Program-made: the position numbers and the translations under genes
Part shown: positions 3,833 through 20,236 of the stretch, piece by piece
Position numbering within the stretch: the stretch's first letter is position 1
How the letters are laid out: every line of letters begins with the position of its first letter
The notes under the pieces: generated by a model
Told to the model about the DNA's origin: nothing
Database searches by the model: none
Seen by the model: only the letters and a program-made list of their open reading frames with translations
Source of the DNA: a virus
Reading direction: 5' to 3' (one strand)
Length of the DNA: 20,257 nucleotides
IMG/VR virus record: IMGVR_UViG_3300033149_003206
Coordinates: 1-20,257 of that record

Positions 3833-4375
3833 TTATGCTGATGTTAAAGTATATTTACAATCTACGACCAATGTTTCAGTATTCGTTTTAGTCCAATTTA
3901 CTTGCATGTGTGACCACAATCTTCCCGTATTAGCAGAAGCTTCTCCATCAATAAAGTTTCCAAATTCGGTGAAAGTTCCACTAACCTCCGTTTCTGTAAA
4001 ATAAGCCGTAATGTATGCAACATTATCCTCTGCCGTCCCAGAGGCAATATCGTTTCTATATGTCTCATTGTAAAGTTGTGTTTCGGAGCCATCAAAACTT
4101 CCACTTCCAGTCCCAAGTGCCGCTTTATTGATGTTTCCAGAATAGGTATTATCAGACGCCAACCTTCTTGTAATTACATTTAATCCAGCAACGCAAATCA
4201 CATTCTTCTTGACATCTACCCTTCTAAGTTCGCCTAAAATATAATACTTTCTTGGTAAATTAAATCTAATCACTGCTTTATTCCACAATCTTTGTAAAGG
4301 ATTTAAAACGCTCTGGTCGTAGAACCTTGCCGTTATCTCACCGACTATTTTAATTTGTTTATTTTCTTGTGCCAT
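3833..4375 (-). CDS. Tail-tip/baseplate-associated protein with GTGSG beta domain
   Basis: 180 residues. The N-terminal 65 residues (FYDQSVLNPLQRLWNKAVIRF) are not assigned. Residues about 85-180 form a beta-rich domain with ALGTGSGSFDGSETQLYNE, then FTEFGNF and a final CKYTLTSA strand. The same layout (GTGTG, then DTDL, then EAGNF, then a final hydrophobic strand) appears in the 119-aa protein at 17244. This motif family is common in phage virion proteins next to baseplate or fibre genes. It sits between the hub-like gene and the fibre genes. Likely a structural connector of the fibre to the tail tip; no enzyme signature. Confidence 0.6.
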   Translation of the reverse strand: MAQENKQIKIVGEITARFYDQSVLNPLQRLWNKAVIRFNLPRKYYILGELRRVDVKKNVICVAGLNVITRRLASDNTYSGNINKAALGTGSGSFDGSETQLYNETYRNDIASGTAEDNVAYITAYFTETEVSGTFTEFGNFIDGEASANTGRLWSHMQVNWTKTNTETLVVDCKYTLTSA

Positions 4376-4379
4376 ATTT

Positions 4380-5870
4380 TTAATAAAGATAAAAACTTAT
4401 ATCAATCCTTGCGGGTCTTTTGTTATCATCATCAGAAGTGGGAAAATAAGGACCAAGAACCCATAAAGGTGTCCAAGGGTCTTTCCTTATTTGCTCAGCA
4501 ATAGACACGGTTTGATGGTCTGCACTCTCCGTATGTCTTGAAATATCTTCGGTAATCGTTACCTCTTCACTTAAAAATTTTGCTCTTTCCAATATCTCAT
4601 TCTCATCAATCTTAATTTTCTTATTCTCGCCAAGCAATAAATCCTGTAATAAGTCAATAATTCCATACTTCTTAATAGAACTAATCTCAACTTCCCATAT
4701 CAATTTATTCGCACCGATAATTTTCGTTACCACCCTATCAACAATGAAATACTCATCTATACTTCTTGAAGTTGAGTTAATTCTAATCCTTTGCCCGCTT
4801 CTTAAACCAGACCTATAAGTTTTGAAGCTACCAATTTTTAATGGTCTTGAATAAGCTTGTAATTCTGCCTTTGCTCTCTCTCTTGCAGTTGCTTTGCTTT
4901 TGATAGTTTTGTCAATAATCTTATACTCATAAGTTCCGTATTGGTTTATAGAATCATCATCAGCTGTAACTACCAAAATAGGAAATAAAGGAGTTCCAGA
5001 AATGGTAACAACCGCATTCGAAGTAGGAGCATTCTGAAATCTGATATATTTTCCATTAAAACTCCATAAACAATCATACCCGTCTGAGAAATCATCTAAT
5101 CCATCTACACCCACTACTTTTTGTTCTCCATCTATATCAACCCCAGGTTTCTCCGAATACTTATAAGCCAGAGGAAAAGAGGTCTGTTCTCCATCTGCTA
5201 CATATTTTTCGGTTCTTAGACTTGCCACATATTCTCCTCCCCTTACATAGATAACATTTCTCAATTGACTTAAATCCTCCTCTATCTCTAAACTATCGTA
5301 AATGTAAGTATCATTATCGTCTTCCAAATCAAACGGTGCCGACTCTCCTATTTTCGAGAAAAAATGAATGTCTTTATCATAATCCACATACCAATAATAC
5401 CCGACCAGTTCTGCCAATTGCTGTAATACTTTAGATGGCTGTTCATAATTGAAAGAAATGTTTTCAACTGCGATATTACATTTGACATTATCCATCGTAA
5501 ATCCGCTTGGTAGATAGTTTTCAATCAAATCACTAATAATCCCAGATACAGTCGTATTCTGATAATTCTTTACAACTAATTGTTGGTCCATCTGATGGGT
5601 ATAATCCTTACAATCAACATCATATTCTAATAATCCTCCCCTTGAAGCACTTTCTCTAACTGAAACAATTATCCCGCCAAAAATCTTTTCTCCGTTGTAA
5701 TAGACAACTACCTCGTCTCCTAATTGAGGTTTCCAGCTCTTATCTCCCCATTTTTTAGTTGTAAAGGAAAGAGTATCCACCTGTGAGGTAATTATGTCCT
5801 CCTTCCTGAAACTATCCAAATCTATATAATTTTTTCTCTCAATATCATTAACAAGAATGCTCAAGTTCAT
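4380..5870 (-). CDS. Baseplate hub / tail-associated protein (gp27-like fold likely)
   Basis: 496 residues following directly after the tape measure gene with a 4-nt ATGA overlap. Residues about 1-75 look like the first hub domain (PQLGDEVVVYYNGEKIFGGI, a phrase typical of late-control D/gp27-type proteins). Then come VDCKDYTHQMDQQLV and a helix region IISDLIENYLP, a LAELVGYYWYVDYDKDIHFF motif near residues 148-167, and a region RERAKAELQAYSRP (329-342) followed by SGLRSGQRIRI, all typical of hub proteins. The C-terminal 80 residues end with a neck (ITEDISRHTESADHQTVSI) and a tip carrying PWTPLWVLGPY. It likely caps the tail tube and plugs the tape measure end. No peptidase or lysozyme domain is visible. 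Confidence 0.8.
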   Translation of the reverse strand: MNLSILVNDIERKNYIDLDSFRKEDIITSQVDTLSFTTKKWGDKSWKPQLGDEVVVYYNGEKIFGGIIVSVRESASRGGLLEYDVDCKDYTHQMDQQLVVKNYQNTTVSGIISDLIENYLPSGFTMDNVKCNIAVENISFNYEQPSKVLQQLAELVGYYWYVDYDKDIHFFSKIGESAPFDLEDDNDTYIYDSLEIEEDLSQLRNVIYVRGGEYVASLRTEKYVADGEQTSFPLAYKYSEKPGVDIDGEQKVVGVDGLDDFSDGYDCLWSFNGKYIRFQNAPTSNAVVTISGTPLFPILVVTADDDSINQYGTYEYKIIDKTIKSKATARERAKAELQAYSRPLKIGSFKTYRSGLRSGQRIRINSTSRSIDEYFIVDRVVTKIIGANKLIWEVEISSIKKYGIIDLLQDLLLGENKKIKIDENEILERAKFLSEEVTITEDISRHTESADHQTVSIAEQIRKDPWTPLWVLGPYFPTSDDDNKRPARIDISFYLY

Positions 5871-8182
5871 ATTCTAATAGTCCTTTTTAATTTTTTCACA
5901 ATTTTGTCTCCAAGTTCTTCCGCCGCATCATCAGACAGATAATAACCACCATTAACATTTACTACAATGTTAAGGTTTTTCCCTAATTCTTTTCTTGCTC
6001 TATATGCAGGCACAACAGCTTCCCCTTTATGTAAGAGATATGTCCCAGTTGCTGGAACATAAGCAGTTCCCATTTGAAATCCTCTTAATCCTCCACCAAA
6101 AGGCAATGGAAAACGAATTCCTGATAAAGTTCTGTTTATATCTTCTACCATCTTGTCATAGATATTCACTACTTCGTCTTTCCACCCCTTAACGAGATTG
6201 AGTCGTTCTCTCACATGGTCTCTTAATGTTTTTGTCTTCTCCAATTCAGCATCAACGGCTTTTTGCGTCGTTTTTCCAATTGCTTCTCTTATCGCCGCCT
6301 GTTCTTTTAAAAGTTGAAGCAATCTTTTTGTTCTCTCAACCTGTTCGGTAAGAAACTCCTTCTGCATCGTTAACATTTTCTTTTGATGATTATACGCCAA
6401 TTGCTCCAATTCGTTCATTTGATAATATCTCTTTCTCTCCGCCACCTCGTCTTCTAAATCTAACTGCATCTTGTAATAAGTTTGTAAAAGTTGTTGTTTC
6501 CTCGATATCTGTGCGTTCAGGTCATTTACCTCTTCTCTATTTCCTTTAATAAACGCCTCATTTCTCTTTTTCATTAAGTCTTCTATTTCTAATTCGGTCT
6601 TCGCTACTAAATCTGCAACATCTTCGTGGAACTTTTCTTCTTCTCCAGCCCTATCTTTTTGATAACTGGTATAAGCGCTTGCTATTTCGTTGACCACATC
6701 TTCTATTTCTTCTCTAACGCTTCTCACAGCATCCACCGCCTTTTGAAACGCTTCTTCCATCTGTTTCCCTGCTTCTACTGAACTCTCACCAACTTCTGGA
6801 AGATTTGATACAATATCATCTAAACTGGTGTTCAATTCTTCCAATGTTTTCTTTACATCTTCGCTTATCTCTCCAAATTGTTCTTGCTCTTCTTGTGTAT
6901 TTCTGCTTGCCGCCACAACACCATAGAAACTTTCTTCCGTCTCTTTAAGTTCCGCCCTCAAATCATTCAATTTATCCTTCACAGCTCTATTCAATCTCCC
7001 GAAAGCTCTTGTAACCTTATCAGCAACCTCAAGCACTTTTATTGCCCACTTAATTACTGTTTCTCTAATAGAAAGCAATGCTAATGTCCAAGCATCTTTC
7101 CAACTACCAACAATATCTTTCAATTCTTTTATCTTCCTATACATATAAACGAATGCTGCTACTACAGCGTAAATCAATAACAAAATCGGATGAGAAAATG
7201 TAAGCGCAATAACTTTCTTTACAAATAGTAATGCTTTTCCTATTCCCATTAACATAGGAATTACTTTAGAAAACATCACAAGTAAAGGACCAATGACTGC
7301 TAAAAGACCTGCAATCTTGACAATCATTTCTTTTGTTCGGGGGCTTAACTCTTTAAATCTTTTTACCCATTCTTGTAAAATTGCTATTACTTTCTTTATA
7401 GTAGGGAAAAACGCTGTTATCATTTCACTTAATAAGTCTCTAATATCAGCTTTCAATGCCAATTGCATTCTTAATAAAGAACCTTGTTGTTCCTCATAAC
7501 CCTCTACCGCATCTTTTGATTGTTTATAAGCAAGAGAAAGCAAAGCCTGAGCCCTTACCTGCGCTCTCGTTGCTGGAGGCAATTGATTTAATTTCTCTCC
7601 TACTTTCAAAAGTCCTAATCTTAACGCCTCTGCCTCAATAGTAGATTCTCTTGCATCAATTCCGAACCTTCTTAATGGTTCTGAAGCTCCAACAAGACCA
7701 GATTTAATGGCTTGTAATACATCAACAGGATTAACATCGTTAAAAGCCGCTAATGCATCAGTCAAGAAAAGCCATTGTTTTGTCATCTCTGTTGCTGTAT
7801 CTCTCGAAATGCCCATCGGCACTAATAGGTCTTGTAAAGAAGAAGCCATCTGAATAATCTCTCTTCTGGAGGCTGGCATTGTCTTTCTTAACTGATTAAC
7901 GAACTCCATCATATTCTCTCTATATTCTCCAAACACAACATTAAACTTCGCTAAAGCACCTTCCATTGCTTTTGCCTCATTTAAAGCAATTACGCCAGCA
8001 CCTACAATCGGAGCAGTAATATACAATGACATCTGCTTTCCAATTTGTCCCATTCTTTTACTAATTTTCTCTAAGTTCTGTGATTGCTTTTTAAAATTCG
8101 ACTCCAAACCCTTCAGCTTCTCAGTAGCCTCATCTCTAATTTTTAACAATATCTCTAATGTGTTTTGACTTACAACTGCCAT
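5867..8182 (-). CDS. Tape measure protein
   Basis: 771 residues, the longest gene in the window. The N-terminus (residues 5-45) is helical with repeated Glu and Lys. Residues 55-260 resemble the N-terminal part of many siphophage tape measures (AKAMEGALAKFNVVFGEY, NPVDVLQAIKSGLVGASEPL). Residues about 285-346 contain hydrophobic stretches (IAGLLAVIGPLLVMF, ILLLIYAVVAAFVYMY) fit for membrane insertion at DNA ejection. Residues 390-690 are coiled coil. The C-terminus carries the hallmark VPATGTYLLHKGEAVVP. By the usual rule of about 0.15 nm per residue the tail would be roughly 115 nm. It begins 13 nt inside the end of the frameshifted chaperone and overlaps the hub by ATGA. Confidence 0.93.
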   Translation of the reverse strand: MAVVSQNTLEILLKIRDEATEKLKGLESNFKKQSQNLEKISKRMGQIGKQMSLYITAPIVGAGVIALNEAKAMEGALAKFNVVFGEYRENMMEFVNQLRKTMPASRREIIQMASSLQDLLVPMGISRDTATEMTKQWLFLTDALAAFNDVNPVDVLQAIKSGLVGASEPLRRFGIDARESTIEAEALRLGLLKVGEKLNQLPPATRAQVRAQALLSLAYKQSKDAVEGYEEQQGSLLRMQLALKADIRDLLSEMITAFFPTIKKVIAILQEWVKRFKELSPRTKEMIVKIAGLLAVIGPLLVMFSKVIPMLMGIGKALLFVKKVIALTFSHPILLLIYAVVAAFVYMYRKIKELKDIVGSWKDAWTLALLSIRETVIKWAIKVLEVADKVTRAFGRLNRAVKDKLNDLRAELKETEESFYGVVAASRNTQEEQEQFGEISEDVKKTLEELNTSLDDIVSNLPEVGESSVEAGKQMEEAFQKAVDAVRSVREEIEDVVNEIASAYTSYQKDRAGEEEKFHEDVADLVAKTELEIEDLMKKRNEAFIKGNREEVNDLNAQISRKQQLLQTYYKMQLDLEDEVAERKRYYQMNELEQLAYNHQKKMLTMQKEFLTEQVERTKRLLQLLKEQAAIREAIGKTTQKAVDAELEKTKTLRDHVRERLNLVKGWKDEVVNIYDKMVEDINRTLSGIRFPLPFGGGLRGFQMGTAYVPATGTYLLHKGEAVVPAYRARKELGKNLNIVVNVNGGYYLSDDAAEELGDKIVKKLKRTIRI

Positions 8183-8726
8183 TTTTTTCTGAATTTTTTA
8201 GATTCTTTTTTTAATTCTTTACTATCCAAAACTAACTTGTCTCTCAACAAATCCAAAAACCATTGGGGTTGATTCATATAAGTCCAGTAATCCCAGCCCA
8301 TCTCTTGACATATCGCTACCATCTCCATCTCTGGAGTGAGTTTGCCAAGCCGATACCATCTTCTGGCATCGGCTCTTACTTTAAAAAATCCTTCTCCCCT
8401 ATAACTTCGTTCAATTTCTTTTTAAGAAACTCCCAATCTCCCGTTCTCATATTCAAGACCTTCTCAAGAACATTCTCGCTATCACCATCCACCGACACAA
8501 TAATGGTTTCAATCATTATATTTTCCACTTTTTCAGTAAGGTCGGCAGGGTTTATACCAGCAACCTCTAAATTTTCTCCGCTCTCTCCTTTCAAATTAAA
8601 TTGCATACCTTCTAAATAAGGTCTCAAAATTGCTCTTCTTTCTCTGACAGTCAACCATTTTTTTAATACAACCTTATGCTTCTCAATAGGAGTTTCTACT
8701 TCTATTGTTTCTCTTTCGTTTTCCAT
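8170..8726 (-). CDS. Tail assembly chaperone, -1 frameshifted long form (gpGT-like)
   Basis: The zero frame from ATG 8726 reaches the heptamer T TTT TTA at 8388-8382, just before its stop. Slipping back one base there gives AAA GTA and then 70 further codons to TAA at 8170, a 185-residue fusion. The extra part (VRADARRWYRLGKLTPEME, then MGWDYWTYMNQPQWFLDLL and a basic tail) has no start of its own and otherwise leaves a 190-nt gap before the tape measure. That layout and the position directly between major tail protein and tape measure are diagnostic of the lambda G/GT scheme. The long form binds the tape measure and recruits tail subunits. The slip itself is inferred from the DNA, not measured. 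Confidence 0.88.
8376..8726 (-). CDS. Tail assembly chaperone, short form (gpG-like)
   Basis: 116 residues from ATG 8726 to TAA 8376. The opening is acidic and charged (ENERETIEVETPIEKHKVVLKK), then a mainly helical body with VRERRAILRPYLE (residues 27-39) and an EVIGEKDFLK end. It is a soluble cytoplasmic chaperone that should be made in large excess over the frameshifted long form and is absent from the mature tail. It follows the major tail protein gene after a 20-nt gap. The start has an AT-rich leader without Shine-Dalgarno site. Confidence 0.85.
   Translation of the reverse strand: MENERETIEVETPIEKHKVVLKKWLTVRERRAILRPYLEGMQFNLKGESGENLEVAGINPADLTEKVENIMIETIIVSVDGDSENVLEKVLNMRTGDWEFLKKKLNEVIGEKDFLK
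8382..8388 (-). other. Programmed -1 ribosomal frameshift slippery site
   Basis: On the minus strand the heptamer is T TTT TTA, matching X XXY YYZ, with zero-frame codons TTT TTA AAG and the zero-frame stop TAA only one codon later. After the slip both P- and A-site codons become TTT. An imperfect GATGCC/GGTATC stem lies about 15-30 nt downstream (plus 8350-8369) and may stimulate the slip. The zero-frame Leu-Lys-stop and the new frame differ by exactly one base. Confidence 0.85.
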
Positions 8727-11219: not shown

Positions 11220-11831
11220 TTATCCTATTCTTCTTTTATACCTATCTAAAATGACCTTTGCTTGTTTAATGTAATCTGATTCTTCTCCACCTCTAAAACT
11301 CATCGTAATTCCACCTTGACTGGTAGAACTCAATAACATCGGATTCGTTTGCCTATTAAAAATATCTTTTGTAATCAAATTCACCGCATCCTTAATATCA
11401 TCTGGAATCGTCTCATATCCAGCCCTATAAGATATCTTTGTAAAGTATTTCCTCAATCTCATTTTTCCTTCTATATTGATTGCGTAATAAGGATAAAGAA
11501 CATATCTTTGATTTGACGGGATAACATACTTATTGTTTCCATTGCTATCCTGCAAACTCAATTCCGTGCTGTATGTCCCTAAAAATATCTCCAATTTTGA
11601 AACTGAATGAATTGGAAACTTCCTCGGAAAGATTAAAATATCTCCATCAGGACTAATAATCGTCTCTGCTTTTTCATCTGTTATATCTTCAATCTGTAAA
11701 TCATACCCAAGATAGCCATCAACCCATTTTGAGGCTCTACTTATCATTCCCGAAATAGTTACGCTTCCATATACTGAAAAATCCATTTCGGGGTTCCAAT
11801 TTTTAAATTCGTCAACTGAAATATAGTTCAT
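11220..11831 (-). CDS. Head-tail connector (adaptor) protein, gp6-like
   Basis: 203 residues from ATG 11831; a TTG three codons earlier (11840) is rejected because the ATG follows the AAT-rich leader used by neighbouring genes. N-terminal YISVDEFKNWNPEMDFSVYG resembles adaptor starts, followed by a helix ISGMISRASKWVDGYLGYDL (residues 27-46). A beta insert carries FPRKFPIHSVSKLEIFLG. The C-terminal part (IPDDIKDAVNLITKDIFNRQ, then QAKVILDRYKRRIG) gives the helices that bind the portal in HK97 gp6-like adaptors. It sits first in the neck block, so it probably seats on the portal, whose gene is outside the window. Confidence 0.75.
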   Translation of the reverse strand: MNYISVDEFKNWNPEMDFSVYGSVTISGMISRASKWVDGYLGYDLQIEDITDEKAETIISPDGDILIFPRKFPIHSVSKLEIFLGTYSTELSLQDSNGNNKYVIPSNQRYVLYPYYAINIEGKMRLRKYFTKISYRAGYETIPDDIKDAVNLITKDIFNRQTNPMLLSSTSQGGITMSFRGGEESDYIKQAKVILDRYKRRIG

Positions 11832-11832
11832 A

Positions 11833-13710
11833 TTATTCAAACGGACCTTTTATTTGTGGCGGTCTGAAATCACGAGACCGATAAGGTAAAATTTTCCTCA
11901 GACCTTTTGGTATTTTTTCCAAGAAACCAACGATAATAGAAGCTAATGTAACAGCAGTTACGTTTAAAGTCCTAAAAAGATATTTCGTAAGTCCAATAGT
12001 AGCACTTCCCGCAACACTAACAGACAAAACAATCTTTTTATATATCCTCCTGCCTATAGATGGTATGCTACTTGTTACTACATTTATCTGTCTTTCGAAT
12101 AATCTACTCTTTACCAAAGAGACTACTGATGATACGCTTGCGCTTAATGCTTCAAAGAACCTTATTACAGTGTTGAGAGTAACAACTGATACAACGCCTG
12201 TAGATAAAGTTCTAAACAATTTCTGAACAGAACTTATCACAGCAGAACTAACAGCGGTGGCGTGTAGTGTTTTGCGCAACTTTTTCAGGATACTAACAGA
12301 TACTACAGACGATACAACCAGATTAACTGTGCGCCGTAATAACCTCGTCAACGAAACAACGCATATAGCACTAACACTGATAGTCCGTTGCAAAAACCTT
12401 TTAACATTTATGCTTACAACCGAAACAATATACGCATTTAAACTTCTGAAAAATTTACCAAACCTGCTTAAAGAAACTACAGAAGCAACACTTACTGATA
12501 ATGTTCTATACAGCCTTGCAGCTCGTGAAAGAGTTACAGAAGATACCTCTATCACTGACATAACTACGCTCTTACCGAATCTACTCGTGAGAGTCGCAAT
12601 TGTATTCGCAGTAACGGACAGTGCCCTACTTAGGGACACGCTTATCTTTATATTAGCAATAGACGACACGACAACAGATAAACTTCTAAACAAACTCTTA
12701 AATACGCTCATAGTAGCAACACTGACCACACTTACAGACAACATCTTCTTAACCATTTTCACCAGCGAAACCACAGAAACCATTGCAACTGATAACAATT
12801 TAGAGAAACTTTTTACAACAGAAAGCGTAACATTGCTAATTTCTGTGACAGATAAACTTATAAATCTCTTAGCCGTTGTTCCTAAAGTAACAATCGAACT
12901 ACTAACAACACTTAGGGTCTTTAACTTAAACAATCCGTATTTAATCGAAACAATAGCACTCTCAACGACTGATAAAACTCTGTAAAAGAACTTGGCGATG
13001 CTTAATGAAACATTACAAACAGCAATAGCAATCATCTCCACGTAATGCGTTGCTATTCTTAATAAAGTTGCAACACTACTCATAACCACACTTAATGTTC
13101 TTTTAAAAAGCCTTGCTGCTACAATACTGACTGAACTTATACTTGTCACCGTCAATGTTCTAAAAAACTTCCTCGTCAAGCTTATAACCGAAACTCCACT
13201 TACTACAGCAGATAAAGTTCTGAAAAGCTTACTTACAGTGTTTATAATTGCAGACGAAACTTCCGTCACACTCAAACTGATAAAATGTTTTACTCGAGTA
13301 GTTAAAGTCGTCACGCTACTTCCAATCACGCTCAATATTCTTCGGAAAAATTTACCCAGTGTCATACTTGCAATACCTGTCATCACCACAGACAAACTCC
13401 TGAAAAGTTTCTTCGCTATACTGATATAAGGAACACTTGTTATGGTAACTGACAAAGCTCTGAAAAACTTACTCAAAGTATTCAGCGATACGATTGACAA
13501 CTCTACGACGCTCAATATTCTTTTAAATAAACTCGTTTTTAGAACAGATACACTACCTACCGCCGTAACAATCAAACTTCTGATAAATTTCGAAGTAGTG
13601 CTTAACAAAGCCGATGATTGAGCTGTTGCGGCTAATGTCTGCGAGAAACTTCTTATAGTTTCAACCCCCCCTCCATAACTTGCCGAACCATAAGAATAAG
13701 AACCATACAT
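11833..13710 (-). CDS. Basic protein of about 29 tandem 20-residue repeats, unknown function
   Basis: 625 residues. The start MYGSYSYGSASYGGG is Gly/Ser/Tyr-rich. From residue 26 the sequence divides into 29 units: all are 20 residues long except two of 18. The consensus is LSVxxSSVxSLxxxxKxFRT. Positions 1, 3, 8 and 11 are hydrophobic, position 18 is usually Phe or Leu, and positions 13, 16 and 19 are often Lys or Arg. Acidic residues are few (about a dozen), so the protein is strongly basic. A 24-residue Pro-rich tail (RSRDFRPPQIKGPFE) ends it. It has no Cys-rich or catalytic block. It lies between the propeller region and the connector gene, outside the normal head-tail order. Repeating strand-plus-helix or solenoid is possible; DNA binding, inner-capsid protein and membrane-active roles are all guesses. 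Confidence 0.75.
   Translation of the reverse strand: MYGSYSYGSASYGGGVETIRSFSQTLAATAQSSALLSTTSKFIRSLIVTAVGSVSVLKTSLFKRILSVVELSIVSLNTLSKFFRALSVTITSVPYISIAKKLFRSLSVVMTGIASMTLGKFFRRILSVIGSSVTTLTTRVKHFISLSVTEVSSAIINTVSKLFRTLSAVVSGVSVISLTRKFFRTLTVTSISSVSIVAARLFKRTLSVVMSSVATLLRIATHYVEMIAIAVCNVSLSIAKFFYRVLSVVESAIVSIKYGLFKLKTLSVVSSSIVTLGTTAKRFISLSVTEISNVTLSVVKSFSKLLSVAMVSVVSLVKMVKKMLSVSVVSVATMSVFKSLFRSLSVVVSSIANIKISVSLSRALSVTANTIATLTSRFGKSVVMSVIEVSSVTLSRAARLYRTLSVSVASVVSLSRFGKFFRSLNAYIVSVVSINVKRFLQRTISVSAICVVSLTRLLRRTVNLVVSSVVSVSILKKLRKTLHATAVSSAVISSVQKLFRTLSTGVVSVVTLNTVIRFFEALSASVSSVVSLVKSRLFERQINVVTSSIPSIGRRIYKKIVLSVSVAGSATIGLTKYLFRTLNVTAVTLASIIVGFLEKIPKGLRKILPYRSRDFRPPQIKGPFE
11908..13635 (-). repeat. 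60-bp periodic coding repeat (20-residue units, about 29 copies)
   Basis: Units start at residues 26, 46, 66 and so on; periodicity holds to the last unit at residues 582-601. Units 15 and 22 are two residues short. At the DNA level neighbouring units share little identity, so the array is old and kept by selection on the protein pattern, or is diversifying. On the plus strand the same repeats make a false 242-codon frame (12257-12985). Confidence 0.85.
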
Positions 13711-13714
13711 ATTT

Positions 13715-14044
13715 TTATCTTCTTAATGAATTAAGATATTTCAATATCTGGGCTATTACCCAAGGTTTAAATCTTCCAAAAGGATTTTCTTCAACAACCT
13801 TTCGTAAAATCCCAAATTCTTCATCCGTTAATTCTATCTTACTTTTCGCATTCTTAATCTTTAATGCCAAATCCCAACATTCAACAGCCTCTTTTCCTCT
13901 CCTCTGAGAGTTAGGTAATAACTCTAAAAATACATCTTTGTAAATCAAAGGTTGGGGTTTCTTATCAGGTGAAGGTTGCCAGAGAGCCTGCTCCCCATAT
14001 ATATTGACAACCTTTTTATTTAGTTGTATAGTTTTAGTTTTCAT
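13715..14044 (-). CDS. Small helical protein, unknown
   Basis: 109 residues from ATG 14044. The frame opens 20 codons earlier, inside the propeller gene, but that ATG lacks the AAAAAT leader and would overlap 61 nt of the upstream gene. The sequence begins MKTKTIQLNKKVVNIYGEQA. The second half is helical (KSKIELTDEEFGILRKVVEE and FKPWVIAQILKYLNSLRR), with a WQPSPDKKPQP linker near residues 22-32. No known domain seen; not membrane bound. The gene stops 5 nt before the repeat-protein ATG, so it may be that protein's partner. Confidence 0.65.
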   Translation of the reverse strand: MKTKTIQLNKKVVNIYGEQALWQPSPDKKPQPLIYKDVFLELLPNSQRRGKEAVECWDLALKIKNAKSKIELTDEEFGILRKVVEENPFGRFKPWVIAQILKYLNSLRR

Positions 14045-14048
14045 ATTT

Positions 14049-14714
14049 TTAAAAAATATAACCAGATGATATTGGTGGTGGACCTGGTGGCACTGCTGCC
14101 GCATCTAATTCATAAACCTTTTCAGCGTCGGTATCACAATGCCAAATAGTGTTAGAGTCTCCTCCTATGCCACTAGTATAAGTTGAAGGACTGCTAGCCT
14201 CTCTTATTACTGAGAAGTCGGTAGTAGAGAGTTCATAAACCTTGTCTGTACCAGCATCACAATGCCAGATAGTGTTAGAGTCTCCTCCTATGCCACTAGT
14301 CCAAGTTGAAGGACTGCTAGCCTCTCTCACTACTGAAAAATTAGTAGTAGAAAGTTCATAAACCTTGTCTGTATAATTATCACAATGCCAAATAGTGTTA
14401 GAGTCTCCTCCTATACCAAAAGGAATATCCGAAGGACTACTAGCCCGCCTTACTACTGAGAAGTCAGAAGTAGAAAGTTCATAAACCCTGTCATCATCAG
14501 CATCACAATGCCAAATAGTGTTAGAGTCTCCTCCTATGCCAAATGGCCGAGTTGAAGGACTGCTCTTCCCTCTTACCACTGAGAAGTCAGTAGTAGAGAG
14601 TTCGTAAATCTTGTCTATATAACTATCACAATACCAAATAGTGTTAGCGTCTCCTCCTATTCCAGAAGGACTACTTGAAGGACTAGCTTCTCTTAATACA
14701 TCTCCAAAAGCCAT
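14049..14714 (-). CDS. Five-blade propeller-like repeat protein
   Basis: 221 residues. Five units begin GIGGD(S/A)NTIW(H/Y)CD, each 41 residues long (the last is cut short), at residues 18, 59, 100, 141 and 182. Each carries D+VYELST and FSVVREASSPS strands. Short four-strand repeats with Trp and a GGD turn are typical of beta-propeller blades (NHL/Kelch-like); the lead segment VLREASPSSSPS could close the ring. Every blade has one Cys in the same place. The C-terminus (VPPGPPPISSGYIF) is Pro-rich. It lies in the head-side accessory region, so a capsid decoration, host-surface or glycan-binding protein is likely. No signal peptide. Confidence 0.7.
   Translation of the reverse strand: MAFGDVLREASPSSSPSGIGGDANTIWYCDSYIDKIYELSTTDFSVVRGKSSPSTRPFGIGGDSNTIWHCDADDDRVYELSTSDFSVVRRASSPSDIPFGIGGDSNTIWHCDNYTDKVYELSTTNFSVVREASSPSTWTSGIGGDSNTIWHCDAGTDKVYELSTTDFSVIREASSPSTYTSGIGGDSNTIWHCDTDAEKVYELDAAAVPPGPPPISSGYIF
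14105..14663 (-). repeat. Tandem 123-bp repeat, five units
   Basis: The 41-residue blades are nearly identical in DNA: long blocks such as AATGCCAAATAGTGTTAGAG, spaced 123 bp, recur along the plus strand, with changes concentrated at a few codons (the CDxxxD segment and the SSPSxxx segment). This shows recent amplification and would favour recombination between units. Confidence 0.9.
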
Positions 14715-14722
14715 AGTTCAGG

Positions 14723-15145
14723 TTATTTTAATAATTCATATCTTTTTCTCTTGACAATCCCCGCAACCCCCTTATTCTCGTGCAAATCCTTTAGAATTTC
14801 TTGAGGCTTCTTTCCTTTGAATTGGTCAAGAGAAATCTTTTTCTCTTCCAAAGAAACCCTAAATAAAGCCTCATCACCAACCGAATACACTTCCTGCTCT
14901 GGCATATAATTTTTAATCGCTTCATTGATTGCATCTTTTCCAATCAAAATAGTTACTCCTTCTACTCCTTCATATTGAGATAAATCTCTATCATCCTCTA
15001 CCAGTCTTATTTCTAAGGCTGGTTCTACGTCCATATTTTGCCAGCCATAACATTGAAGTTTCGGGTCATTGGGGTCAATACCTCCTGCTCTTTTGCCCGT
15101 TTTGGGGTCCCATTCTATAAGTAATGCTCTTAATTCTTTAGCCAT
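14723..15145 (-). CDS. Small soluble protein in the head accessory region, unknown
   Basis: 140 residues, no family recognised. The N-terminus (AKELRALLIEWDPKTGKRAGGIDPNDP, read in two pieces) looks like a beta-hairpin with a Gly/Pro turn. Central GVTILIGKDAINEAIKNYMP suggests a strand and helix, and the C-terminal half (ISLDQFKGKKPQEILKDLHE) is helical, ending with a basic KRKRYELLK. It follows the fibre gene after an 18-nt gap and precedes the propeller gene by 8 nt, so it is part of the same operon. Its function may be tied to the fibre (chaperone or collar); that is inference from order only. Confidence 0.65.
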   Translation of the reverse strand: MAKELRALLIEWDPKTGKRAGGIDPNDPKLQCYGWQNMDVEPALEIRLVEDDRDLSQYEGVEGVTILIGKDAINEAIKNYMPEQEVYSVGDEALFRVSLEEKKISLDQFKGKKPQEILKDLHENKGVAGIVKRKRYELLK

Positions 15146-15163: not shown

Positions 15164-17191
15164 TTATATCTTTTTGACCTTTAGAGCAATAGTTACCCTT
15201 GTGATTGTGTCGCAACTATCTACATTAAAAGCCAAAACATCACCAGCATTTATCGTTTTGGTCCAACCAGATAATGTTGTATCTTCGTATTTTTGAGCCG
15301 ATGAAATTGCTGGCTTATTCCCACCACAAATACTATCAGCACTTGTTGGCGGGAAGTTAGCGTAAGTATCTTTCCAAATATCAATCTGTATAGAACCCGA
15401 TTGGTCAGCCAATAGAGCAACACTTTGAATTTCGCAGTCAAAAGGGATTCTTAAATGCCCCTTCTCACCAGTTTCAATTGCAGAACCACCTCCATCAATA
15501 ACAAAAGTAATAGAATTTATATCATCCTTATTCTCCCACTTTCCTGTAGTAGAATTATAAATTAAACCCTGTCCACCTGAAGGAGATGAAATTGAAACAT
15601 CTCCTAAATCATTTAATCCAGCATCTACTGACCAAGTTCCTGATGTTACTTTTGGAATACCTGTTAAGGCTGAGGTATCAAGCCCTGTTCCACCATAAGC
15701 TGCCCCTAAAGGCGTGCCTAAAGTAAGTGTGCCAGAGGCATTAATATTACCAACAACATCCAACTTCGCCCCCGGACTCGTCGTCCCGATGCCGACGTTG
15801 CCGTTAGACCTTCTAATAGCAAGAGCGGTCCCTACCCAAGCTCCTGTATCATCAAACCTGTCAAAGTAAAATAGAGTTCCATCAGGATTCACTCCTTGAG
15901 AAAACCTTGTTGTTTCACCTTGGTAATACGCCATTTGTGCTAAATAGCCAGCACCTGATTGAAATATTAACTGAGTATTTAAGCTTCCTGAAACTCTTAA
16001 ACCATCCCAGTCAGTGGTAGTTGAGATATCCAACTTTTTACTCGGCTCTGTTGTCCCAATACCAATCTTGCCGTCTGCATCTATAAACAAATCAGAGGTA
16101 TTCACCCAGTTCGCTCCATCACACCTTAAAATTTGTCCTGCTATTGGAGAAGAAATAGAAACATCCGCTAAATCGTTCAATTCAGCACCTCCGCTAACAA
16201 CACCAGAAGACGCCTTTAAGACACCATCAAGGCTTCCAATTGTCAAACTATTAGTAGCTAACCCATAACTTCCCAAATCTACATCTCGAGTTGCTCCTTC
16301 ATAAGGAACAAAAATGTTTTTGAAAGCGCTACTTGCTACCATTATACCAATTCGGCTATCATACTCTCCTTCCATTGAAATAGTAACTGTTGGGTTTGTC
16401 CCAGTTCCAGATACATTAGCATAAATTTTCAATACCAATCTATCAGTTGGGTCAATATCTATATCATTATTCTCGCTTGACGACAAAAGATATTGCGTCA
16501 ATGTATCCGTCAAATCAGAACTTAATTCACTGGTCATCAATTCCGTCTCTGTTCCATCTGGCGCCCTCTTAAACAATTTCCAATAGATATTGACTGTCTT
16601 CTGTCCAGATTTTCTCAAGTATAAAGTTGCTGTATAAATACCGAGAGACAAGAAATCAAGATTGGGCACCCCGCTGGCAGTCACAAAAGACCATAGCAAT
16701 TGGTCATTTCCAGCCGCCAAAGCAGGACTTGTCAGTTCGCTCAACGCTTCTTCAGTTTCGCTTTCATACATATAATAATAGCCACCGATATCAGCACTAT
16801 TATCGCTCAAAAACAAATTCAACACAGCCGCAGCAACAGATGTATCCACATAGCTCTTTATATCATCTCTAAATTTCTTGGTCGGAGCCAAAACCATCTT
16901 ATAAGTCTTTCCTGTTATGTTATGGTCTTGCGGAGTCGTTCCCTCTTGTCCTCTTGTAATAGTCAAAGTATCCCCACTTTTAGCAGTAACTCTTACAATT
17001 TCTACATTGGGGTCATCCGCAGGGTCTTTATAATCTGTGTAATTCCACCAAACTAAATTGAACTCCCCATCCGTTGCTGGGTCTGGGAGTTTGTCTCCGT
17101 CTCCGGTGTTCAAAGTAATCGATATTGCAAGGCTATCGTATCCTTGCGATACTGTAACCTTAGCAAAATTTTTGACTGGGTCTATTGCCAT
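15164..17191 (-). CDS. Large virion fibre protein (head- or tail-fibre type)
   Basis: 675 residues. The N-terminus (AKVTVSQGYDSLAISITL, then TRGQEGTTPQDH, residues 9-90) matches the attachment domain of many phage fibre proteins. After a stretch of beta-rich linkers (residues 115-335) two copies of the motif GIGTTxPxxKLD occur, near residues 375-389 and 467-480, each following a D/N-G-K/N turn. Similar DVSISSP blocks precede each of the two parts. The last 110 residues (FVIDGGGSAIETGEKG, then WKDTYANFPPTSADSI and a final VTRVTIALKV-like strand) form a common fibre tip domain. No chaperone/intramolecular cleavage domain is seen. It is not in the usual tail-fibre location, so a capsid fibre is likely. 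Confidence 0.8.
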   Translation of the reverse strand: MAIDPVKNFAKVTVSQGYDSLAISITLNTGDGDKLPDPATDGEFNLVWWNYTDYKDPADDPNVEIVRVTAKSGDTLTITRGQEGTTPQDHNITGKTYKMVLAPTKKFRDDIKSYVDTSVAAAVLNLFLSDNSADIGGYYYMYESETEEALSELTSPALAAGNDQLLWSFVTASGVPNLDFLSLGIYTATLYLRKSGQKTVNIYWKLFKRAPDGTETELMTSELSSDLTDTLTQYLLSSSENNDIDIDPTDRLVLKIYANVSGTGTNPTVTISMEGEYDSRIGIMVASSAFKNIFVPYEGATRDVDLGSYGLATNSLTIGSLDGVLKASSGVVSGGAELNDLADVSISSPIAGQILRCDGANWVNTSDLFIDADGKIGIGTTEPSKKLDISTTTDWDGLRVSGSLNTQLIFQSGAGYLAQMAYYQGETTRFSQGVNPDGTLFYFDRFDDTGAWVGTALAIRRSNGNVGIGTTSPGAKLDVVGNINASGTLTLGTPLGAAYGGTGLDTSALTGIPKVTSGTWSVDAGLNDLGDVSISSPSGGQGLIYNSTTGKWENKDDINSITFVIDGGGSAIETGEKGHLRIPFDCEIQSVALLADQSGSIQIDIWKDTYANFPPTSADSICGGNKPAISSAQKYEDTTLSGWTKTINAGDVLAFNVDSCDTITRVTIALKVKKI

Positions 17192-17243: not shown

Positions 17244-17603
17244 TTAAGTTATCTCTAAATCAATCGTAAATTCAATCTGGTCTCCTGCTTGTAAGTCAAT
17301 AGGGTCAAAATCTCCGTGAACAATCAAAGTTCCTCCAGACGAGGCAGTAAAGTTTCCAGCCTCTCTAATAGTTTTCGTCCCATCAGCAGTTAAAGTTCCA
17401 ACCCATCTTATCTTGTCAGCCGCTGGTTTGCTTCTTGTTCCCTGCACCCTTGCTTCTGATGTCGGTCCGAACAAATCAGTATCAGATTTGCTGGCGGTTC
17501 CAGTTCCAGTTCCCCAAGCAATCCAATCACCAGTTGTTTGGACTTGTTCATCTATTTTATCGACAAGCCATTCTTCACCAGACTGTGTAAGAACTGTTGC
17601 CAT
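17244..17603 (-). CDS. Virion protein with GTGTG beta domain
   Basis: 119 residues. After a short helical start (TQSGEEWLVDKIDEQ) comes WIAWGTGTGTASKSDTDLF (residues 28-46), then a strand set RWVGTLTADGTKTIREAGNF and a final strand QIEFTIDLEIT. The layout is the same as residues 85-180 of the protein at 3833. In phages this domain normally belongs to baseplate or fibre accessory proteins, and here it directly precedes the 675-residue fibre, so it is probably the socket or collar of that fibre. A gap of 52 nt follows, with only a weak 5-bp hairpin (17209-17238). Confidence 0.7.
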   Translation of the reverse strand: MATVLTQSGEEWLVDKIDEQVQTTGDWIAWGTGTGTASKSDTDLFGPTSEARVQGTRSKPAADKIRWVGTLTADGTKTIREAGNFTASSGGTLIVHGDFDPIDLQAGDQIEFTIDLEIT

Positions 17604-17623: not shown

Positions 17624-17809
17624 TTATTGTTCTTCAATGCCAAGTAATTCTGACTCAGGGATAAACTTTTTCTCGCCATCTTCTGTTAAGACGAGATAGC
17701 TTACCCCATCGTCAGAAATAGAGACCTTTAAAACTTTTAATATGCCAAGCTCTTTAAGCCTTTTTTCTGACACATCTGGTTGATTTCTGTCTTGTTTTAT
17801 CCCTGCCAT
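17624..17809 (-). CDS. Small hypothetical protein, 61 aa
   Basis: 61 residues, MAGIKQDRNQPDVSEKRLKE at the start. The first 25 residues are charged and may be disordered; the rest (GILKVLKVSISDDGVSYLVL, then KKFIPESELLGIEEQ) would form a small three-strand sheet like those of short phage head proteins. No family recognised. It is separated by 20 nt from the 119-aa gene and by 4 nt from the upstream basic gene. Confidence 0.6.
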   Translation of the reverse strand: MAGIKQDRNQPDVSEKRLKELGILKVLKVSISDDGVSYLVLTEDGEKKFIPESELLGIEEQ

Positions 17810-17813
17810 AATT

Positions 17814-18029
17814 TTACTTAATTAGTTTTTTGATTTTGCCGACCTTTAAGAATAGATTATAAAGAAATCCTCGTTTGTAAGTTGCTATTGTCCCTAAATC
17901 ATACCATTTCCCCTCACTTGCTCTATATACCCTTGCTTTAATTTCCGCTTTCTTAACTCCCGCCTTAGCCTTTCCAGCTATTTTAATTTTTCCAGTTTTT
18001 GAAAAAAGTTTTTTAAGTTTGTTGAACAT
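17814..18029 (-). CDS. Small very basic protein, unknown
   Basis: 71 residues from ATG 18029, in the same AAAAAAT-ATG context as many neighbours. Longer starts are GTG 18056 and ATG 18044; all overlap the end of the glycosyltransferase (stop 18013). The product has about 20 Lys or Arg (MFNKLKKLFSKTGKIKIAGK) and a middle beta part (EIKARVYRASEGKWYDLGTI). It ends with a hydrophobic-basic stretch FLYNLFLKVGKIKKLIK. This could bind nucleic acid or a membrane surface; it has no known motif. Overlap with the glycosyltransferase stop points to coupled translation. Confidence 0.6.
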   Translation of the reverse strand: MFNKLKKLFSKTGKIKIAGKAKAGVKKAEIKARVYRASEGKWYDLGTIATYKRGFLYNLFLKVGKIKKLIK

Positions 18030-19125
18030 ATTTTTTGAAAACATTTTCCCAATCACTTACGACCTTTTTAAGGTCTCGGTTTTCAAAGACAAATTTTCTC
18101 TGTTCTTCTAATATCCTCTCTCTAAACTCATTATCAACAATCAATTTCTCCAATTTCTCATACCAATCCTCTTTTGTATTCTTTGCTCTATAATTCACCT
18201 CTCTCTTGTAAGGAATTACATCTGACGCAATAGTCACTGTTCCGACTGCCGCATATTCGTAAAACTTAACACATGACTTTCCTTCGTTAAAACTATGCTC
18301 CTCCAATGGGCAAATTCCTATATCTAAATCCGCCTTTCTCAAAATTTCTGGGAACATCTCAACTGGATAAAAGGGAATATGCTCAAAATTCTTTATTTTC
18401 TTACACTCTTCCAATAATTTTCTAACAGCCACCGCATAATTCTCTCTTCTCTTCTCCAACAATCCTTTCTTCCTTATATCCTCCAACGCAAAGGCGTAAC
18501 TATCTAATGGCTGAAGGGTAATTCCCTGAACAACGAAATCAAAATCATACTTTTTTTGTAATTCCTGAATTACATCCGTAACAATCAATAAATCTCTTAA
18601 ATGAGTATGACCACCACTCCAGCCAATTTTTAATCTTTCACTTTTTCTTTCTCTTTCGTTAAATTTTTCAAGGGGCAGGGCATTTGGCACAACTTCTATA
18701 TTCTTACTTCCATATCTCCTCTTGACAATTTCTTTCAAATCTTCCGTTGTTACAACCATTGCATCGCTCTCCTGTGCCAGAAATCTGATTATATCTCTTA
18801 CATCATCTATTTTTTCTTTTATCGGGTGTCCCTCCATTACTCCTTCTAAATCATCGTCCATCTGATAGATTATTCCTTTTCCTTTTAACTTCGCTCTCAA
18901 AAATATCTCTTTGACCATTCCAATTTTATTTTCATCATACCCCCAATTAAACACTACAACATCACACCAATCTATTGTCTCTTCGTCTATTTTAGAACTC
19001 CTACTAACGATTATCATTTTTGCTTCATATCCTCTTTTTCCTAATTCTCTCAACGGCCATAAAACCCTATAAGCCAAACACCCATTAAAACTATCGTAAT
19101 TGTTGACAATGTTCAGTATTCTCAT
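18013..19125 (-). CDS. GT-B family glycosyltransferase
   Basis: 370 residues from ATG 19125. The frame is open a further 45 codons, into the major capsid gene, but MRILNIVNNYDSFNG (residues 1-15) is the natural GT-B opening. It has VVPNALP (residues 145-151), a linker IGWSGGHTHLRDL (167-179) and the donor-binding block DIGICPLEEHSFNEG then KSCVKFYEYAAVG (268-295), matching the GT4-like C-terminal motif (Glu-rich, Gly-ending). A QMDDDLEGV segment (88-96) may contact the acceptor. It is cytoplasmic, with no membrane segment. Its place directly after the major capsid gene suggests that it decorates a phage protein or alters a host glycan or receptor; the sugar donor is unknown. It starts after a hairpin, so it may be an inserted moron. 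Confidence 0.85.
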   Translation of the reverse strand: MRILNIVNNYDSFNGCLAYRVLWPLRELGKRGYEAKMIIVSRSSKIDEETIDWCDVVVFNWGYDENKIGMVKEIFLRAKLKGKGIIYQMDDDLEGVMEGHPIKEKIDDVRDIIRFLAQESDAMVVTTEDLKEIVKRRYGSKNIEVVPNALPLEKFNERERKSERLKIGWSGGHTHLRDLLIVTDVIQELQKKYDFDFVVQGITLQPLDSYAFALEDIRKKGLLEKRRENYAVAVRKLLEECKKIKNFEHIPFYPVEMFPEILRKADLDIGICPLEEHSFNEGKSCVKFYEYAAVGTVTIASDVIPYKREVNYRAKNTKEDWYEKLEKLIVDNEFRERILEEQRKFVFENRDLKKVVSDWENVFKKYVQQT

Positions 19126-19144
19126 ATCTTTACTTACCTGCCCT

Positions 19145-19190
19145 CCTACCGCTCCAATCCCTCGGAGGGCAACGGGTTGGAGACGGTAGG
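19145..19190 (-). promoter_or_regulatory. Strong hairpin between major capsid gene and glycosyltransferase
   Basis: A 13-bp stem pairs 19145-19157 with 19177-19190, with one bulged base at 19183; the loop holds a small CCCT/AGGG stem. No U-run follows on the minus strand, so it is not a classic terminator; it may cut read-through, act as a processing site or stabilise the capsid mRNA. AGGAGGG follows the stem, 17 nt before ATG 19125, too far for a normal ribosome site. Confidence 0.65.
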
Positions 19191-19216
19191 CAAGCCACAA
19201 GGAAAACTTGTTAATT

Positions 19217-20236
19217 TTATGTAGCCAATCCGCCAATCTTATAGAAGTATGGCTCTGCAATCAGTTTCAAGACGGTTGCCTCAACCACAAAGCTATCTTT
19301 TGCAAAAGTAGTCACTGGAACATCAAGTTTTACAAGAGGAATCAAGTCTTCCATCTCTACATAGTTCTCTCCAGCAGGAGATTTAATTGCACCCAAGATA
19401 GCCCAAGCACCCATATATCTGGACACAACAATATCAATTGTCTGTCCAGTTGCAGGGCTTACAATTGAGGAAACCCTCAAGTTGGCGGTTGCAGCACCTT
19501 GGTCAGAGACAATAATTCTCTGAATTGAACCAGATGCTTGCAACTCATCGCTCAATGCCCTGCTTTGTCTTGGGCTAACGAACAAGTGGGTAGCAACACC
19601 TCCTGCTTTGAAGATTGTCTCATCATACACTCCAACTCCTGAAGCAGTTAACAGAGAGGCAGTTCCGCTGTTAGTAGTAATCTGTTTTAGCAAGCCATCA
19701 AAGGCATTGCTATCAGCATCACTATCAGCGTTGATAATTGCCCATTCCTCTGCCAACATTACTTCAAGAGTTTTAATTCGAGTCAATTCGTCCTCAACAG
19801 GTAAATAATCTTTTGAAGCGGCAACGTGTAACAAACCAACACTTAACTTTCTTCCAAGTAATTTGTAAGCCGCAGTTACTACCGAAAATGTGTGGGTAGT
19901 TTCCTGCGGAGTTCCACCATCTGCGAAGAAAGGAGTTTTCCCAGTGCCAGTGGCGGATGGGTCAAGCTTGGAGGTCATTTTCTTCCAAGCCGCCGCCTGT
20001 CCTCTACCTTTTTTTCTTGGCAATAAACTCCTAATCGGAGTAGCTGTAGGGACAATCAATTTGACAACTGGGTCCAAATTCTCCGCAACAAAGATGGAAC
20101 GAGTGCTTGGAGAGAAAGTGTAAGTGCCAGTCGTGACCGTAGCCTTCCTAATCGCCTCAGCAACCATCTCAAGCGTATCCTTGTTGCTCAATAATGTTTT
20201 AACAGTTTCAGCATCTACAAGTTTTTGTGTTTCCAT
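19217..20236 (-). CDS. Major capsid protein, HK97-fold type
   Basis: 339 residues. It has the features of HK97-fold coat proteins: an N-terminal helical arm (residues 5-30, VKTLLSNKDTLEMVAEAI), then a likely extended loop region with TPIRSLLPRKKGRGQAAAW (about 65-85), a spine-helix region EDELTRIKTLEVMLAEEWAI (146-165) preceding the D/N-rich NADSDADSNAFDGLLKQI typical of such proteins, and a C-terminal A-domain part with RYMGAWAILG and YVEMEDLIPLV. The size is typical of coat proteins lacking a fused scaffold. Leader AATTAAAGGT before ATG gives a weak ribosome match. No scaffold or protease gene is in the window; these should lie to the right, upstream. Confidence 0.82.
   Translation of the reverse strand: METQKLVDAETVKTLLSNKDTLEMVAEAIRKATVTTGTYTFSPSTRSIFVAENLDPVVKLIVPTATPIRSLLPRKKGRGQAAAWKKMTSKLDPSATGTGKTPFFADGGTPQETTHTFSVVTAAYKLLGRKLSVGLLHVAASKDYLPVEDELTRIKTLEVMLAEEWAIINADSDADSNAFDGLLKQITTNSGTASLLTASGVGVYDETIFKAGGVATHLFVSPRQSRALSDELQASGSIQRIIVSDQGAATANLRVSSIVSPATGQTIDIVVSRYMGAWAILGAIKSPAGENYVEMEDLIPLVKLDVPVTTFAKDSFVVEATVLKLIAEPYFYKIGGLAT

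Follow-up and report, generated by a model that had tools for sequence, protein, structure and literature searches.

The window analysed here is the whole of a virus record, 20,257 bases long, and contains a module of capsid, fibre, and adaptor genes that includes a gene for a long repeat protein. The features that concern us are as follows.

11220-11840, minus strand: head-tail adaptor gene, the immediate downstream neighbour of the array gene, which it overlaps by 8 bases
11833-13710, minus strand: repeat-array protein of 625 aa, ATG start, 29 units (residues 26-601)
11836-11907, minus strand: basic C-terminal tail of the array protein, residues 602-625, KGLRKILPYRSRDFRPPQIKGPFE
13636-13710, minus strand: short N-terminal region of the array protein, residues 1-25, MYGSYSYGSASYGGG...SFSQT
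13715-14104: 129-aa gene between the array and the propeller-like gene
14049-14714, minus strand: period-41 repeat protein, beta-propeller-like, in the same module (Vgb_lyase similarity, below cut-off)
15164-17191, minus strand: fibre protein in which some segments are tail-fibre-like and the C-terminal domain is virion-structural (phrog_35197, 1e-35; phrog_10330, 7e-24)
17244-17603, minus strand: protein resembling GP4 gp80 (fibre I), from a conserved companion gene of the array (PF23140, 21.6 bits)
18013-19260, minus strand: glycosyltransferase between the capsid and fibre genes (phrog_7162, 6.5e-36)
19217-20236, minus strand: major capsid protein, SU10 MCP family (PF17236), the upstream border of the module

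Adaptor, neck, and tape-measure genes are also present in the window. The interval from capsid to adaptor holds the glycosyltransferase, small genes, the gp80-like gene, the fibre gene, the propeller-like gene, the 129-aa gene, and the array. In contig L004 (related contigs are given by L numbers), whose adaptor is 55% identical to that of the window, the capsid gene is followed by the adaptor gene and the whole cassette is absent, which indicates that the cassette is accessory. A sequence-only reading of this DNA had placed the array gene in the virion region, between propeller and connector genes. The virion-region placement is supported, and the downstream neighbour is a head-tail adaptor gene, but on the other side the 129-aa gene separates the array from the propeller-like gene. 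The fibre protein encoded at 15164-17191 and the array are probably distinct components of one appendage module. The product of 14049-14714 has a strong 41-residue repeat (z about 30) and is a small propeller-like protein within the fibre module, and the glycosyltransferase might modify virion proteins or host glycans. The family phrog_5417 is matched both by 17244-17603, in the array module, and by 3833-4375 (minus strand), near the tail-tip genes, so that one genome carries two gp80-like paralogues.

Self-similarity within the 625-residue protein is maximal at lags of 20, 40, and 60 residues, and the mean BLOSUM score at lag 20 is 0.68, compared with -0.43 ± 0.08 for shuffled sequences. A dynamic-programming parse divides residues 26-601 into 29 units, of which 27 have 20 aa and the other two 18 aa, in full agreement with the repeat number, the 20-residue register, and the two short units that had been reported from inspection. 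The DNA of adjacent units is on average 40% identical (maximum 52%), and identity between units at codon positions 1, 2, and 3 is 46%, 44%, and 33%. As the unit DNA has diverged and third codon positions are the least alike, selection acts on the protein, and the earlier proposal that the pattern is kept at the protein level stands. The protein is basic (pI 11.7) and its acidic residues are indeed scarce (79 K+R, 12 D+E); it is also very hydrophobic (GRAVY 0.76), and half of its residues are Ser, Val, Thr, or Ile. It matched no family in Pfam or PHROG and no chain in a search of solved structures, in which the best hit was a designed barrel with an E value of 0.23, bearing out the view that no known fold or family can be assigned. 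A search of the profile databases with the repeat, which had been recommended as a check, produced no family either: the repeat consensus gave only weak matches in Pfam and PHROGs, below the Pfam cut-offs where these were given, and we read them as chance. An antisense ORF at 12257-12985 mirrors the repeat and was taken to be an artefact.

Ordinary similarity searches with the window recovered nothing beyond a copy of the same virus, and tblastn searches of 50,697 phage records with the window protein and the proteins of L064, L087/L119, and L378 gave no match. A search of genome contigs for related loci found none, and a search of them for the repeat DNA pattern left, among the matches listed, only low-complexity look-alikes after screening. 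No period-20 array was seen in the relatives obtained through the capsid (L006-L013), several of whose contigs end shortly past the capsid gene. True relatives (L064 and L087) were found with a degenerate DNA pattern at the 60-base period of the repeat, and further searches identified array relatives in L119 (a longer form of L087), L122, L154, L200, L361, L375, and L378. The same array was found in many IMG/VR phage contigs. We conclude that the array is not an orphan and that it is a member of a common phage family that has had no earlier description. Two distant members, in RHph_TM16 and ct2os315, were missed by the repeat HMM; they were reached through their gp80-like neighbour and recognized by eye.

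The arrays of the window and L064 align with 35% identity (BLASTP 2e-29), and the window array has the L1-V3-V9-L11 pattern and the 18/20-aa units of the 20-aa array family. Copy number, which the sequence-only reading had proposed to compare among relatives, ranges from about 2 to 36 units per array, and the arrays of eight relatives have GRAVY values of 0.63-1.16 and pI values of 10.5-12. The C-terminal tail contains more K/R than D/E in 39 of 50 relatives. The region ahead of the array is at least 120 aa long in 29 of 50 distinct array ORFs; the window protein has only 25 residues where about half of its relatives have a longer N-terminal region. Recognized domains in this position are CBM96 (L390) and DUF2341 (L385); other long N-terminal regions resemble beta-sandwich sequence, as judged by eye only. 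Gene calls in the metagenomic loci are stop-to-stop ORFs, and these architectures rest on HMM borders. In L386 (7356-8612, plus strand), an array of about four units is followed in the same ORF by a YQBQ/Prophage_tail hub domain (1.8e-6), a fusion that gives a possible hint that some arrays may sit at the tail tip. Hydrophobic repeats with a period of about 20 aa and different motifs occur in L052 (7567-9339, minus strand), L118 (819-2315, minus strand), and L425 (9316-11505, plus strand), and these proteins possibly form a wider class with the array family; the L052 protein and the window array protein both have a YG-rich start. In L064, the array gene is followed immediately by several transposase-like ORFs (4573-8655). 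L014 encodes period-14 repeat proteins upstream of its related capsid gene (2-772 and 4585-7011, plus strand), the first of which (2-772) is of the VKANI... type.

The gp80-like gene is a frequent companion of the array. A homologue of window 17244-17603 precedes the array in L064, L119, L154, and L200. A search with the gp80-like alignment gave at least 424 confirmed matches; among the matches listed, 80 loci were available, and an array ORF lies downstream of the gp80-like gene in 54 of these 80 contigs, a script-made count in which contigs may be kin and do not represent independent events. Most of the other 26 contigs have little downstream sequence, and among those with at least 4.7 kb of it, at least five (L434, L437, L440, L446, and L452 among them) carry a diverged period-18/20 array. 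The window gene scores 21.6 bits against PF23140, below the 27-bit cut-off, and its link to the family runs only through a relative: its homologue in MW202796, which is 42% identical over the full length, passes the cut-off with 31.6 bits.

The gene that follows the array is also informative in several relatives. It belongs to the family of the GP4 gp77 fibre-tail adaptor in L385 (1.1e-28), L388 (1.9e-27), L200 (6.5e-8), and L460 (3.3e-7), and a search with the L388 protein also matched a GP4 chain of known structure, 8jou_D (8e-7). A gene with a BppU_N domain is next after the array in L392, L395, L398, and L401, and an SU10-type adaptor directly follows it in L119 and L375. We found no recognizable gp77- or BppU-like gene in the window; neither of the two gp77 candidates, 13715-14104 and 14723-15145, gave a Pfam match, and the small genes at 17624-17809 and 17814-18056 gave no match in a PHROG search.

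Three lines of evidence bear on the fold of the repeat unit. First, 110 unit spacings comprise 86 of 20 residues, 21 of 18, one of 19, and two of 21, and in a beta strand, a change in length by two residues leaves the alternation of inward and outward side chains intact. Second, the unit profile is mirror-symmetric about position 6 (i+j=12, pairing L1 with L11, V3 with V9, and A5 with S7), above the 99.9% point of position shuffles. Every relative tested, and the 18-aa units as well, gave 12 as the best mirror sum; for the window protein on its own, a sum of 14 (0.44) scores narrowly over 12 (0.42). Such symmetry is expected for a meander of equal antiparallel strands with a turn near position 16. 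Third, AlphaFold2 modelling of residues 42-205 with 16 repeat segments gave eight strands of 16-19 residues for eight units, with turns at about unit positions 16-18 (best model: pLDDT 76.7, pTM 0.58); the alignment had 16 rows only, several of them different stretches of one protein. The other four models had pLDDT values of 65 to 48, so the chain path is still a prediction, and its antiparallel course is read from the strand list and the structural neighbours. Structure prediction, as recommended earlier, delivered a best model with one strand of about 17 residues per unit, at a pLDDT of 77. A Foldseek search of the model against the PDB and viral models returned no match with an E value below 0.001; the best structural neighbours of the model were generic wide sheets like those of outer-membrane barrels and of apolipoprotein B (VIA Z 13.1). 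Coupling between adjacent units gave no clear signal and did not show strand pairing. The length quantum, the mirror symmetry, and the AlphaFold2 model agree: a single long beta strand per unit is the probable fold, which makes the helix array and the two-strand solenoid proposed in the sequence-only reading less likely.

The genes around the relatives suggest that the array protein is part of a neck or tail fibre that meets the host. We put at about 0.55 the probability that it is an elongated, beta-rich component of a GP4-type fibre on the neck, collar, or tail; we infer its location in the particle, its packing partner, and its ligand, and the sheet is a predicted one. In such a fibre, each 20- or 18-aa unit would form one long strand with a tight turn near position 16, and successive units would run antiparallel to build one very wide amphipathic meander sheet. 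L1, V3, A5, S7, V9, and L11 would lie on one face, with K13, the aromatic residue at 17, and R19 near the turns, and the opposite face would be mostly Ser/Thr. Presumably the hydrophobic face is covered by a second chain of the array protein or by some other fibre component. Shaft length would follow from the number of units, and the variable unit number of the family fits a shaft that is tunable in this way. The CBM96 or DUF2341 N-terminal domain of some relatives could contact host glycans; in the window virus, the products of the nearby fibre and propeller genes may do this instead. The gp80-like protein, together in relatives with a gp77-, BppU-, or Ig-like adaptor, would fix the assembly to the virion. 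Against the fibre assignment are the missing gp77/BppU-like gene in the window, the sub-threshold score of the gp80-like gene, and the GRAVY values of the arrays (0.6-1.2), which are high for a soluble fibre.

The same hydrophobicity is an argument for a membrane- or lipid-binding amphipathic beta sheet, an open belt or a barrel, that enters the host envelope at adsorption or DNA entry. The eight measured relatives are basic as well as very hydrophobic, the hydrophobic band of the unit from L1 to L11 is flanked at both ends by K/R and aromatic residues, and outer-membrane barrels and apolipoprotein B are among the best structural neighbours. However, any wide antiparallel sheet would find such neighbours, none of them with a Foldseek E value that reached 0.001, and the likeness to transmembrane beta-barrels is generic only. 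The number of units varies widely and the surrounding genes point to a fibre module, so we consider insertion into the envelope unlikely. The broader form of this idea, in which a widespread phage family uses single-strand repeat arrays to make giant amphipathic sheets that become embedded in host membrane lipid, or wrap it, at adsorption, seems to us a little less probable again; we know of no tailed phage that attaches to or perforates the envelope with a giant sheet.

A beta-solenoid fibre shaft, in which each 20-aa coil would have two short strands and two turns, is likewise improbable. The beta-solenoid is a common design of phage spikes, the 20-aa period is regular, and the small residue (S/A/G) at position 7 could bend the chain, but the strands of the medium-confidence AlphaFold2 model are long, with one turn per unit, and the mirror symmetry fits antiparallel strands rather than a parallel solenoid. 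The two-residue length quantum also disfavours it.

An array of amphipathic helices, one per unit, that binds membrane or DNA is very unlikely. In its favour, and counting against a beta sheet, is a raised hydrophobic moment at 100 degrees, which is what helices should show (z 7.5 for the window protein, 4.3 for L200, and 3.9 for L119). A single-sequence AlphaFold2 model was also helical, but its pLDDT was 41.5 and it was not used, and the model became all beta once relatives were added. The abundance of Ser, Val, Thr, and Ile, the length changes in steps of two, and the mirror symmetry also argue against helices. The least credible of these alternatives is an internal or DNA-binding protein that is ejected together with the genome: the protein is basic with few acidic residues and its gene lies near head-tail genes, but relatives carry carbohydrate-binding, DUF2341, or other regions that look like beta-sandwiches, and their genes are flanked by fibre genes and linked to adaptor genes, and so the earlier suggestion of injection from the capsid is unsupported.

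The array often accompanies a gp80-like fibre gene present in hundreds of viral contigs, and naming the family turns many hypothetical genes into candidate host-contact proteins. The predicted fold is unusual: every repeat would contribute a single strand, and the sheet could reach 29 strands or more.

The closest known system is the collar fibre of podophage GP4, which comprises gp80 (fibre I, PF23140) and the fibre-tail adaptor gp77 (PF23148; PDB 8JOU). The gene partners of the array family recall this system, with a gp80-like gene before the array and, in several relatives, a gp77-like gene after it; on the other hand, no solved chain matches the array and the window has no recognizable gp77. 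A second comparison is provided by Alishewanella phage LSH1, in which gp34, gp35, and gp36 encode an adhesin, a GP4-fibril-like protein, and an Ig-like protein, and the C-terminal part of the adhesin could be modelled with poor confidence only (PMC13243795). From the published description, this three-gene module is comparable to the array module (PMC13243795), whereas the N-terminal domain of LSH1 gp34 is lyase-like. Proteins of Rhizobium phage RHph_TM16 (QIG66716.1) and phage ct2os315 (UOF82047.1, from MW202796) have, as judged by eye, units of the same pattern beside a gp80-like gene. Their units are mostly 18 aa long, compared with mostly 20 aa in the window, and the RHph_TM16 protein carries long N-terminal domains that the window protein lacks.
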